The position numbers and the translations under genes were made by a program. From Clostridia bacterium (lineage in GTDB: Bacteria > Bacillota > Peptococcia > DRI-13 > SM3-B62), in the NCBI GenBank assembly GCA_018433675.1, contig JAHDQS010000033.1, positions 62,001 through 126,000 on the forward strand: 64,000 nt of DNA, read 5' to 3'. A model generated the notes under the pieces. The model made no database searches, had not been told where the DNA came from, and saw only the letters and a program-made list of their open reading frames with translations. Shown piece by piece: positions 5,532-12,701 of this stretch. The stretch's first letter is position 1, and each line of letters begins with the position of its first letter.

Positions 5532-5963
5532 CTACATGCTTGGCTGGCTCGGTGTGGAAATCTGGCCAAGGGCTTCCTCTGTTGCCCTATCGTATCTGGT
5601 ATTTACAGCCATATCCCCTAATGACACGAAACCTGCCAGTCTGCCGTTTTCCACTACCGGCAGCCTCCTAACCTGTAAATCCCCCATTAAGTCGATTGCC
5701 TCTTCCACATCCATTTCTGTTTTCCCTACTGCCAACCTATCAGTCATGATGTCTTGGCACCTCACATTGTGCGCATCCTTGTCGTCACACACAACTCGCA
5801 GCACGATATCACGGTCTGTTACAATCCCTTCCACATTCATATCATCGGTACATATCGGTACTGAACCCACATTCCGATCCCTCATGATACAGGCAGCATC
5901 ATACACCGATGTGTCCAGGGATACCGCCGTTACATCCTTTGTCATAATGTCCCCTAGCTTCAT
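5532..5963 (-). CDS. CBS-domain pair protein
   Basis: A 143-residue protein made almost entirely of two CBS domains, at about 1-60 and 70-130, each opening with an (I)MT(K/D) motif (DIMTKDVTAV, DIMTDRLAVG) and carrying VTDRDI- and SLGDM-type ends. Stand-alone CBS pairs bind adenine nucleotides and act as energy or redox sensors on partner proteins. The partner is not visible here because the flanking genes face other ways. An AGGAGGGATG site precedes the ATG. The last 15 residues are a flexible Ser/Pro/Gln tail. Confidence 0.9.
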   Translation of the reverse strand: MKLGDIMTKDVTAVSLDTSVYDAACIMRDRNVGSVPICTDDMNVEGIVTDRDIVLRVVCDDKDAHNVRCQDIMTDRLAVGKTEMDVEEAIDLMGDLQVRRLPVVENGRLAGFVSLGDMAVNTRYDRATEEALGQISTPSQPSM

Positions 5964-6099
5964 TATTTTTCATCCCTCCTGCTATTTTTCATTATCCGTA
6001 TTATGATACCTCATCTTTTTTTATTTATTCATCGCGAAAATGAATGAAAATAATTGATATGCAAAGGTTTATCAATATATTTTTCCCTAATCATTTTTT

Positions 6100-6152
6100 T
6101 CTGACCTTTGCTGACCATAAGGCATCTTAAACATCTTTGACTATATCTGACC
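6100..6152 (+). promoter_or_regulatory. Two CtsR-like operator boxes upstream of the hsp20 remnant
   Basis: The known CtsR operator is a tandem heptad, which on this strand reads TTTGAC(C/T)-NTN-TTTGAC(C/T). At 6136-6152 the sequence is TTTGACT-ATA-TCTGACC: first heptad perfect, correct spacer, one mismatch in the second. At 6100-6116 a weaker copy reads TCTGACC-TTT-GCTGACC (one and two mismatches). Their position ahead of a small heat-shock reading frame supports class III stress control. This is a consensus match from memory, not a scored search. Confidence 0.55.
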
Positions 6153-6212
6153 TTGATATTAAACTATGAGTAAAGTAAATAATATCAATAAAAAAATAGG
6201 AGGTCGAACAAT

Positions 6213-6449
6213 ATCGACATCAAAGCAGAAAACGGAGTAATCACTATCACAGCCTGCCGTTATGAGGAGGTTAATGAAGAGAAAAATAATTACATCCACA
6301 AGGAAACCTTCTCCGGCAGCATCAGCCGTCAGATTTTTCTAGAGAATATCGTCGAGGATCAAATAGCGGCAAAATATGAAAATGGTGTTCTCTCTCTTCT
6401 TGTTCCCAAGAAGCAAACCGGCAAAGAAAAAAGAATTCTCATCGAATAG
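6213..6449 (+). pseudogene. Hsp20 (small heat shock protein) remnant lacking its N-terminus
   Basis: A 78-codon frame encodes the second half of an alpha-crystallin domain: ENGVITIT, then KNNYIHKETFSGSISRQ, then the KYENGVLSLLVPKK strand and the C-terminal ILIE tail (an IXI-like motif). A normal Hsp20 has about 140-150 residues; here roughly the first 60 are missing. A perfect AGGAGGT site at 6198-6204 lies the right distance upstream, but the frame has no ATG, GTG or TTG; the codon at the expected place is ATC, and an in-frame stop lies just before. An ATG at 6166 opens another frame that a -1 shift on a seven-A run would join to this one, without restoring the lost domain. Most likely a deletion derivative. 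Confidence 0.65.
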
Positions 6450-6452
6450 TAA

Positions 6453-6488
6453 AAAGCCCCTCAGAGCTTGCAAACTCTGAGGGGCTTT
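6453..6488. terminator. Bidirectional terminator hairpin
   Basis: Fourteen-base arms beginning AAAGCCCCTCAGAG pair around an eight-base loop and give T-runs on both strands. It separates the convergent hsp20 remnant and the F420-ligase-like gene. Confidence 0.85.
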
Positions 6489-6498
6489 GTCTATTCCA

Positions 6499-7686
6499 CT
6501 ATTCGGTAGCATAATTATCATAATAACCCTGTATCAGTACTATCGGCGTTCCCTTATCACCGCTGCCGCTGGTCAAATCACAGAGGCTGCCCAGCAAGTC
6601 CGTCAATTGACGAGGCGTAGTACCCTGAGAGGCAAGTTCCCCGACAAGGTTATCATCTTTTCTCCTTATTTGAGATTTCATAGCTTCAGTCAGCTCATTA
6701 CCACACAAGTCTTTCAAATGATGATCGGCAAAATACTTTATCTTCAGCTCATTAGGTGTACCGGAAAGCCCTGTAGTATAAGCAGGAGAAACAACAGGAT
6801 CAGCTAGCTCCCATATCTTACCAACCGGATCTTTAAACGCACCGTCGCCATAAATCATGACTTCGACCTTTCTGCCTGTTAACTCCCCTAATTTCGCTTG
6901 AATTTTTTCTACGTAAATCTGTCCGTCACGTGGAAACAGCTTCAACTTCTCATCGTTGGCCATGTTCGAACCTAATAAGCCGAATTCAGGGTTATAACCT
7001 TTGCCTTTATGGGGCACGTTGCAAACGTCAGTCAAAGTGTAGACTAATTCGGCGCCGGCCTGTTCGAGTAGTTTTTTCGTCCTTTTTCTCGTATGGACAT
7101 CGGCTGTCAGTACCTTTTTAGTGAATTTCAGAATAACCCGCGGGTCATTAGCCAGGTGAATTGAGATATTATCATCTACTGCCAATTCTTTATACATTTG
7201 GACATAGTCAATACCGGTAAAAGGATGCCGAAAGGTTCCAAACATCTTGCAGTATTCCTCTTCGGATAAAACATCCTGAGAGGGTATAATACCTAAATCA
7301 TCCATTTTTTCAATGTCCATAAGATGATTTCCAACCTCGTCGGAAGGATAACTTAATAACAGGTGGACTTTTTTTGCCCCCCGCGCTATTCCTTTCAAAA
7401 TCATTGAAAATCTGTTCCGGCTGAGGATAGGAAAAACAACCCCTATTTCAGCATCGCCAAACTTACTCTTGATATCTGCGGCAACCTCATCCACCGTTAC
7501 ATAATTTCCTTGAGCCCTAGCCACCAGGGATTCGGTTATTCCAATTACATCCCCGTCTTTTAGTTGATACTCTTCTGTTTTTAGGGAAATCATAATCGAA
7601 GTAACGACCGTCTCGACTAAATCGTCCCCTTCTCTAATGATTGGTGCCCTAATTCCACGTATCTGTGTGCCTGTTGTTCTGGACAA
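6499..7686 (-). CDS. Coenzyme F420:glutamate ligase-like protein (CofE/FbiB family)
   Basis: A 395-residue protein whose N-terminal half fits the F420-0:gamma-glutamyl ligase fold (IRGIRAPIIREGDDL, then GDVIGITESLVARAQG at about 45-60). In F420-producing organisms CofE adds glutamates to F420-0 using GTP. Clostridia commonly carry longer homologues without other F420 genes; no cofC, cofD, cofG or cofH is in this window, so the true substrate is uncertain. The start is TTG with AGGAGTGAGG five bases upstream. It is transcribed alone, divergent from the TetR gene. Confidence 0.8.
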   Translation of the reverse strand: MSRTTGTQIRGIRAPIIREGDDLVETVVTSIMISLKTEEYQLKDGDVIGITESLVARAQGNYVTVDEVAADIKSKFGDAEIGVVFPILSRNRFSMILKGIARGAKKVHLLLSYPSDEVGNHLMDIEKMDDLGIIPSQDVLSEEEYCKMFGTFRHPFTGIDYVQMYKELAVDDNISIHLANDPRVILKFTKKVLTADVHTRKRTKKLLEQAGAELVYTLTDVCNVPHKGKGYNPEFGLLGSNMANDEKLKLFPRDGQIYVEKIQAKLGELTGRKVEVMIYGDGAFKDPVGKIWELADPVVSPAYTTGLSGTPNELKIKYFADHHLKDLCGNELTEAMKSQIRRKDDNLVGELASQGTTPRQLTDLLGSLCDLTSGSGDKGTPIVLIQGYYDNYATE

Positions 7687-7816: not shown

Positions 7817-7838
7817 ATAATGAACTGTAATTCATTAT
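7817..7838. promoter_or_regulatory. Inverted repeat, likely TetR-family operator (site 1)
   Basis: Eight-base arms ATAATGAA and TTCATTAT are separated by six bases, with the core TGAA-N6-TTCA. It lies just upstream of the regulator start, where an autorepressor would bind. The same core and spacing recurs ahead of the efflux gene at 8467-8480. Confidence 0.6.
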
Positions 7839-7858
7839 TGAAAAGAAAGAGGTTTTTT

Positions 7859-8449
7859 ATGGTGCAGATCTTAAAAGAAGAGGTTGCTGATAAAATATAC
7901 CGTTCCGCAATTGATGAATTTTATGCAAAAGGCTTTAAATCAACAACCATCAAAGGCATAGCCAACAGTGCATCCGTCTCTGTAGGGCTTGTTTATACCT
8001 ATTACAAGAACAAAGAAGACTTATTCGAAACTATTGTAACTCCGACATATTCATTAATAAAAACCACTTTAACTGAAATCAACAATTCCGGAAACCTTCC
8101 ATCTGAAAGTTTTATCTTAAAAAAAGAAATGCAATTAATTATCGATCTTCTAAAGCATAGACGCAAGCAATTAGTGATATTACTTGATAAAAGCGATGGA
8201 ACAAGATATGAGAATGCTAAGGAAGAAATCATTAATCTAGCTAAGGTTCATATCCAGAAAAATTTAAGCAAAAAAATCAAAGGCTCACAAGGTACCATTG
8301 ATGAAGAATTTTATCACATCCTAGCCAACAACTTTTTCGAAGGACTCTTCGAAATCGCAAGACATTACAAAAATGAAAAATGGGCTGACAATATGGTGGA
8401 ACTTCTGGCCAAACAATATTTCTATGGCATTAACGCTTTGATTGAATAA
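7859..8449 (+). CDS. TetR/AcrR family transcriptional regulator
   Basis: A 196-residue repressor-type protein. The N-terminal TetR helix-turn-helix is at about residues 12-58 (FYAKGFKSTTIKGIANSASVSVG-type, with VYTYYKNKEDLF after the recognition helix). The all-helical C-terminal ligand domain is unassigned. I chose the ATG at 7859 because AGAAAGAGG lies six bases upstream and the upstream 13 codons would overlap the putative operator. It sits 60 bases ahead of a MATE transporter, the usual arrangement for a drug-responsive repressor and its target. Confidence 0.92.
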   Translation: MVQILKEEVADKIYRSAIDEFYAKGFKSTTIKGIANSASVSVGLVYTYYKNKEDLFETIVTPTYSLIKTTLTEINNSGNLPSESFILKKEMQLIIDLLKHRRKQLVILLDKSDGTRYENAKEEIINLAKVHIQKNLSKKIKGSQGTIDEEFYHILANNFFEGLFEIARHYKNEKWADNMVELLAKQYFYGINALIE

Positions 8450-8466
8450 TTTTTTTTGAACAAAAT

Positions 8467-8480
8467 TGAATATATATTCA
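8467..8480. promoter_or_regulatory. Perfect palindrome, likely TetR-family operator (site 2)
   Basis: The 14-base palindrome TGAATATATATTCA lies between the TetR gene and its MATE neighbour, 16 bases ahead of the ribosome site. It has the same TGAA-N6-TTCA core as the site upstream of the regulator, so both are good candidates for one protein's binding sites. Confidence 0.55.
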
Positions 8481-8509
8481 TTTTTGATATAAATTAAGGA
8501 GGAAAGAAA

Positions 8510-9871
8510 ATGAACAATGAAAGACAAGTAATACTCGAGAAAGAAAGAAGGTTTGAACACACACCTATTCCCAAACTGTTGCTTCAGATGTCACTGCCCA
8601 TGGTTTTTGCCATGATTGTCAATGGGTTATATTATCTCATTGATGCGGTTTTTGTCGGCAAAGCAGTGGGAGGAAATGCCTTAGGTGGTCTGGCAGCGGG
8701 ATTTCCCATCGATATGCTGGTGGTGGCCTTAGGTACGATGCTGGGAATTGGTACATCTTCCATCGTTTCATTTAAACTAGGTTCCCATAAGAAAGATGAG
8801 GCAGCTTCGGCAGTAATAAGTGCCGTACTATTCACAATTATATTGGGGGCATTTTTTTCTGTGATACTCATGATTTTCAAGACAAATATTTTTCATCTTT
8901 TTGGTGCTCAAAAACAATTATTCGAATATGCAAACGATTATTATTCGGTAATTATTCCGGGTAGTGTTTTAGTTTTACTTAGCTTTTTGGGGATCAATAC
9001 GGTACGTGCAGAAGGCAACGCAAAACTGGCAGCTGTTGTAATGTTTTTTGGCGCATTGCTCAATGTTTTCTTAAATGCCCTTTTTATTATGGTTTTTGAT
9101 ATGGGAATAGCGGGAGCCGCATGGGGAACAATCGTTGCCAGATCGATATCGGTAATAATCTTGATAGGTTATTACGGTTTTAATATGAGTGCTATAAACC
9201 TGCGTTCTGCAAACTGGCGTATCAACTTCATTGATGTAAAGAGAATTATATTGATAGGAATAGGATCATTTTTAAATCAGGTGGGATTTTCGATTTTAGC
9301 GGCTACAGTAAATATCCTTTTGAAAAAATATGGAACAGCTGCCGACCTCTCCGTTTACGGAGTGATAAGTCGCATACATATTTTTATCACTATGCCTTTA
9401 TTAGGTTTAGCCCAAGGCTTTCATTCCATTGTAGGGTTCAATTTTGGAGCAAATAATTATAAACGGGTTTCCGAAACTGTTAAATTTTCATTTATCTTTT
9501 CATTCTTTATCGGTCTATTTCTCTCTGCTTTCTTAGTTTTCATGCCTCAAGGGATTTTAGGATTGTTCACTAATGAGCAGGAAGTGATACAAAACGGCGT
9601 TTACGCTCTGCAAATCAGTACATTGATGACTCCTATCATTGGTCTGCAAATCCTGGCAAACTTCTACTTTATGGCTATTCATAAGCCTGTTAAGGCCATG
9701 TTGGTCTCTCTCTTCAGACAGGTAATATTTATTATGCCGCCACTTGTTGTTTTGCCATTGTTTTTAGGTAAGCAGGGAATATGGTTATCCTTTCCGGCAG
9801 CAGATGTTGTTACGGCCACAGTATCCTTTATCCTTCTTTTGAGGTCTGTAAACCTGTTAAAGCAAAACTGA
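8510..9871 (+). CDS. MATE family multidrug/Na+ antiporter
   Basis: A 453-residue inner-membrane protein with about twelve hydrophobic segments in two MatE repeats. It is a cation-driven exporter of drugs or metabolites of the NorM/DinF/MepA class, with the early segment PKLLLQMSLPMVFAMIVNG typical of the MepA-like branch. AAGGAGG precedes the ATG. The TetR regulator directly upstream and the palindrome between them suggest ligand-induced expression. The substrate cannot be read from sequence. Confidence 0.93.
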   Translation: MNNERQVILEKERRFEHTPIPKLLLQMSLPMVFAMIVNGLYYLIDAVFVGKAVGGNALGGLAAGFPIDMLVVALGTMLGIGTSSIVSFKLGSHKKDEAASAVISAVLFTIILGAFFSVILMIFKTNIFHLFGAQKQLFEYANDYYSVIIPGSVLVLLSFLGINTVRAEGNAKLAAVVMFFGALLNVFLNALFIMVFDMGIAGAAWGTIVARSISVIILIGYYGFNMSAINLRSANWRINFIDVKRIILIGIGSFLNQVGFSILAATVNILLKKYGTAADLSVYGVISRIHIFITMPLLGLAQGFHSIVGFNFGANNYKRVSETVKFSFIFSFFIGLFLSAFLVFMPQGILGLFTNEQEVIQNGVYALQISTLMTPIIGLQILANFYFMAIHKPVKAMLVSLFRQVIFIMPPLVVLPLFLGKQGIWLSFPAADVVTATVSFILLLRSVNLLKQN

Positions 9872-10652: not shown

Positions 10653-12336
<1,684 letters not shown>

Positions 12337-12355
12337 TAGCTTCTTTTATCACCCG

Positions 12356-12640
12356 TTAAATTACGGCGTGTATATCGCGTTCACTTAATATAAGAACTTC
12401 CTCGCCATCGATCTTGATTTCTGTTCCTGCATACTTGGAATAAATGACCTTGTCCCCTACTTTAACCTCCATAGGCACCTTTTGTCCGTTTTCCAGGATT
12501 CTTCCTGAGCCAACAGCCAACACTTCGCCTTGTTGCGGCTTTTCCTTAGCGGTATCAGGTAGAACGATCCCACTTTTGGTCTTCTCTTCCTGAGCCAATG
12601 GTTTTACAATTACTTTTTCGCCGAGGGGCCTAATATTCAT
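12356..12640 (-). CDS. groES: Co-chaperonin GroES
   Basis: The 94-residue heptameric lid of the GroEL chamber. The start [14 protein letters not shown] and the mobile-loop region ([18 protein letters not shown] at about 16-33) are typical. I placed the start at 12640, where AAGGAG lies about ten bases upstream; the frame stays open 15 codons more but those lie in the leader. It is the first gene of the groESL operon. Confidence 0.97.
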
Positions 12641-12674
12641 TCTGACAAACCTCCTTAATAATTTAGATTTATTG

Positions 12675-12701
12675 TTAGCACTCAACTATATCGAGTGCTA
12701 A
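12675..12701. promoter_or_regulatory. CIRCE element (HrcA operator)
   Basis: TTAGCACTC-N9-GAGTGCTAA matches the CIRCE consensus exactly. It lies between the groESL promoter and the groES start, so HrcA bound here would block transcription until heat stress. hrcA itself is not in this window. Confidence 0.97.

Follow-up and report, generated by a model that had tools for sequence, protein, structure and literature searches.

A start-less Hsp20 remnant in a Clostridia bacterium, probably an ordinary pseudogene left by a 179-base deletion

How can a heat-shock gene keep its promoter signals and its ribosome binding site and yet offer no codon at which translation could begin? This question is raised by positions 6100-6449 of the window, the stretch of 64,000 nucleotides from a Clostridia bacterium contig that was analysed here. 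The original prediction described an Hsp20 stub in which CtsR-like boxes, an AGGAGGT site and the C-terminal half of an alpha-crystallin domain are all present without a usable start codon. A Pfam profile search yielded a PF00011 match at 6201-6446 with 48.7 bits (cut-off 20.8) that spans profile positions 20-101 of 102, confirming the C-terminal part of the alpha-crystallin domain, which is incomplete in the window. Positions 6192 to 6449 are open in the Hsp20 frame, and from the upstream stop as far as the TAG at 6447-6449 this frame was found to contain not a single ATG, GTG, TTG or CTG, so the absence of a usable start codon stands as well. The search for Rfam families gave no match in 5900-6600. 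From the sequence comparisons described below, we consider 6100-6449 to be, with a probability of roughly 0.9, an ordinary pseudogene of a probably CtsR-controlled Hsp20 that lost a block of 179 bases. The features of the locus are given below, where G001 denotes the MAG "Clostridia bacterium SV3-B7.1" (JAHDSQ010000041.1), a sister species and the one other member of the genus that was compared.

6100..6116, + strand: CtsR-type box 1, TCTGACC-N3-GCTGACC; half-sites differ from G001 at 1 of 14 bases
6136..6152, + strand: CtsR-type box 2, TTTGACT-N3-TCTGACC; half-sites identical in G001
6137..6165, + strand: predicted sigma-A-type promoter, TTGACT-17-TAAACT; same hexamers and spacing in G001
6198..6204, + strand: Shine-Dalgarno AGGAGGT, now without a start codon; from the window letters and the comparison with G001
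6206..6207, + strand: deletion junction, 179 G001 bases absent (one-base overlap at the ends); from the comparison with G001
6207..6449, + strand: hsp20 remnant, codons 59-138 and stop (pseudogene); from the PF00011 match and the alignment with G001
6453..6488, no strand assigned: hairpin of 16 pairs after the hsp20 remnant; listed by the terminator scan on the - strand only

The same locus in the sister species provides the key to the missing start. G001 encodes an intact Hsp20 of 138 amino acids between the CBS-domain and F420-ligase-like genes, and these flanking genes occur in the same order in the window (98.6% and 93.7% protein identity, respectively). The ATG of the intact gene lies downstream of GGAGGTCGA, which is common to both genomes, and begins 13 bases after the first base of a GGAGG that the window likewise contains. 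A DNA search with window positions 6100-6449 against G001 returned one piece of 83% and one of 92% identity; in the window they adjoin at base 6207, and in G001 178 bases separate them. Compared letter by letter, the block absent from the window comprises 179 bases with a one-base overlap at its ends, and the flanks align on both sides of the gap. The block corresponds to codons 1-58 together with the 5 leader bases ahead of them, and the window resumes at codon 59; thus, the clean loss that had been proposed just behind the ribosome site, and put at about 60 codons, amounts to 58 codons and 5 leader bases relative to this one sister species, against which the size of the deletion is measured. 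What is left in the window are the promoter hexamers, the two CtsR-type boxes, the ribosome site, codons 59-138, the stop codon and the hairpin.

The direction of the change was read from G001 together with more distant homologues. In 16 Hsp20s from 13 genomes of the order and class, 40-69 residues precede the point at which the stub begins, compared with 0 in the stub; these lengths are approximate, as the loci were read in six frames and the starts were set mechanically at the first methionine leaving more than 110 residues. Since the corresponding region is present in 16/16 of these sequences, we reject a gain in G001 and read the change as a loss in the window. The alignment covers 16 of the 19 places known besides the window and G001; the three outside it (G029, G033 and one of the two in G031) have open frames of 139-152 amino acids. 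A second Hsp20 copy in the same genome was likewise rejected: the stub is the sole PF00011 match in this genome, which is 99.94% complete.

In G001 a 9-nt inverted repeat (89% complementary) brackets the 179-base block and could have brought the deletion ends together. However, we discarded it as evidence, because the same 271 bases contain four other inverted pairs of 9-15 nt. As a separate observation, a small hairpin (GTCGA, 6 bases, TCGAC) is found at the junction in the window (6203-6218), immediately where the ribosome site ends, and arms similar to it bracket the missing block in G001.

The control region in front of the remnant may be subject to repression by CtsR. The CtsR operator has the consensus TTTGACC-N3-TTTGACC, from which box 1 differs by three mismatches and box 2 by two. 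At this mismatch level 10 matches were found in the window versus 8.5 expected, that is, chance level. Box 2 overlaps the -35 hexamer, as would be expected for a repressor site. Between the window and G001, 1/28 bases of the four half-sites is changed, compared with 20/73 in the rest of 6060-6160 (p = 0.006), a flank that was the analyst's choice; with the wider flank the significance is gone (23/173 changed in the rest of 5960-6160, p = 0.21), and the conservation of the boxes is therefore no more than suggestive. Independently of the boxes, positions 5960-6059, which take in the start of the divergent CBS gene and the bases upstream of it, carry only 3/100 changes and are far more conserved than 6060-6160 outside the half-sites.

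The genomic context adds weight to the assignment of the boxes as CtsR-type. The genome harbors a ctsR gene (PF05848, 116 bits); the genes after it have McsA and McsB as their best NCBIfam matches, both below the curated cut-offs, and the McsB gene is cut off at the locus end. A box with three mismatches lies just before the ATG of ctsR, and a mismatch-free box was found 85 bases before a gene that best matches ClpB, its protein being cut by the locus end. The genome-wide box pattern was fitted to the two hsp20 sites, so that only the third hit, the one before clpB, is independent. Taken together, of the CtsR-like boxes originally predicted, both are present in a genome that possesses ctsR, but by sequence they are weak and matches of their quality occur at chance level. 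The odds that we give to the different explanations do not rest on them.

Downstream of the remnant, the terminator scan assigned the hairpin at 6453..6488 to the convergent F420-ligase-like gene, and the hairpin may serve both this gene and the hsp20 remnant. Its stem is mostly kept in G001, where the terminator scan lists none. Farther along the window, the interval between the F420-ligase-like gene and groEL contains a TetR-like regulator and a MATE efflux transporter (7820-9871). In G001 the F420-ligase-like gene and groEL are about 640 bases apart, and within the 20 kb of its locus the TetR-like and MATE genes give weak partial matches only; judged from these sequences, this pair is a gain or loss between the sister species. 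An exact CIRCE element, TTAGCACTC-N9-GAGTGCTAA, is located at 12675-12701 (one match, none expected) and precedes groES-groEL (- strand, 10653-12685). Because of this element, control of GroESL seems to be of the HrcA type, separate from the CtsR-type boxes found at hsp20 and clpB.

What the deletion took from the protein can be judged from an AlphaFold2 model of the intact G001 Hsp20 (mean pLDDT 74), in which block means reach 76-93 at residues 41-130 and are mostly below 50 at residues 1-34. The model places strands at 38-42 and 46-52, within the lost residues 1-58, whereas the next strand, 61-66, is kept. According to the model, the alpha-crystallin domain is thus deprived of its first two strands, and the N-terminal arm is gone as well. 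The accompanying fold alignment comprised 20 sequences, namely the intact gene, the stub and 18 of 22 homologues that had been drawn from 54 other loci. We take the two strands to be beta-2 and beta-3, and beta-2 of the Hsp20 family takes part in dimer contacts. With both strands missing, normal folding or assembly of any product of the stub would probably be precluded.

The codons that remain still look constrained. Within the 80 codons shared with G001 we counted 12 synonymous and 8 nonsynonymous changes (dN/dS 0.14), and no stop or frameshift was found among those of the stub. Eight neighboring genes have dN/dS values of 0-0.16, and the stub does not differ significantly from them when pooled (Fisher p = 0.10); ten genes were tried and eight pooled, since TetR and MATE gave weak partial matches in the G001 locus. 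At the protein level six residues differ. The codon at window position 6351 encodes V in the stub and D in G001, and a charged residue occupies this site in 16/16 other Hsp20s; the other five sites are variable among the homologues. Had the whole branch leading to the window been unconstrained, about 27-33 nonsynonymous changes would be expected versus the 8 seen, which suggests either that the deletion is fairly recent or that constraint on the remnant persists. A rough Poisson model, in which the background ratios were assumed, limits the unconstrained time to at most 25-48% of the window branch (one-sided upper bound, six parameter settings). A young pseudogene is the reading that best suits these sequence data.

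The low dN/dS is, however, also compatible with a remnant that is still in use, as the constrained look of the remaining codons is equally expected of a translated fragment. Either a heat-induced Hsp20 fragment, from about residue 59 on, would be made from a non-standard codon, or the start-less, CtsR-controlled transcript would act as RNA. We regard such continued use as very unlikely; translation of the remnant, should it occur, would be an uncommon instance in which a damaged chaperone is started at a non-standard codon. Among the possible routes, the ATC at 6213 comes with a good ribosome site at the predicted distance, eight bases lying between AGGAGGT and the ATC, and the low dN/dS of the fragment would suit a shortened protein starting there. 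Yet AUC is a very poor start codon, the product would, by the structural model, miss two alpha-crystallin strands, and the ATC is the internal isoleucine codon 61 in G001. As it is not conserved as a start, we rejected this suggestion, which lacks comparative backing and strikes us as highly improbable. Translation from the ATG at 6166, followed by a -1 slip on the seven A at 6190-6196, would enter the Hsp20 frame where it is open (6192-6449), and both the ATG and the A run are present in the window. In G001, however, ATC replaces the ATG, and six A followed by C replace the seven. Moreover, the ATG directly adjoins the predicted -10 hexamer (6160-6165) and is therefore placed at or before the expected transcript start, and no ribosome site was seen before it. 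Neither element being conserved, comparison lends the slippage nothing; it was rejected and is hardly credible.

The main remaining doubt concerns the assembly: the organism might have an intact hsp20 from which 179 bases were dropped by an assembly or consensus error. The genome is a draft of 58 contigs, and a fragment that still looks constrained would be expected in this case. Nevertheless, the ends of the block share one base only, and none of the direct repeats listed around it in G001, which measure 7-10 bases, connects one end with the other, so that an assembler would have had no repeat to collapse. Furthermore, the site is located inside a 150-kb contig with aligned sequence on both sides. 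We consequently consider such an error unlikely, at a few chances in a hundred, and retain the pseudogene as the preferred reading.

For this pseudogene we propose the following course of events. One 179-base deletion, probably young relative to the split of the two species, removed the start codon along with the N-terminal arm and the first two alpha-crystallin strands. Heat shock would still release CtsR from the control region of the remnant, and the resulting short mRNA of about 320 bases would offer ribosomes a good binding site but no codon to start from, so that no Hsp20 would be made from it. The lack of an Hsp20 is unremarkable in the order, since 12/25 genomes searched gave no PF00011 match and 13/25 did, the stub being counted among the latter. 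Among genomes of the order with completeness of 90% or more and contamination of 5% or less, a match was obtained in 11/19, and in the same search 12/14 control genomes matched. An ordinary pseudogene of this kind is of little consequence; it neatly captures Hsp20 loss at a stage where the coding start is gone and the control region still in place.

Compared with its orthologue in G001, the remnant shares the locus, the promoter hexamers, the ribosome site, the stop codon and 93% identity across 80 shared residues; the orthologue differs in retaining the 179-base block, and with it the start codon and residues 1-58. Among known systems, the locus resembles the CtsR-controlled small heat-shock genes of Firmicutes. 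For these, the report on hsp18 of Oenococcus oeni describes the CtsR binding site as a tandem heptanucleotide (PMC6305308), and putative operators of this form precede the gene in the window. The likeness extends to the presence of ctsR with mcsA and mcsB in the genome and to the box before clpB, whereas the gene in the window lacks its start codon and first 58 codons, and its control by CtsR is putative. In kind, the change is that of an ordinary pseudogene formed by deletion of the 5′-end: as is generally the case for such pseudogenes, a single deletion has left the regulatory region and the rest of the frame recognizable, and nothing about it is new in kind.
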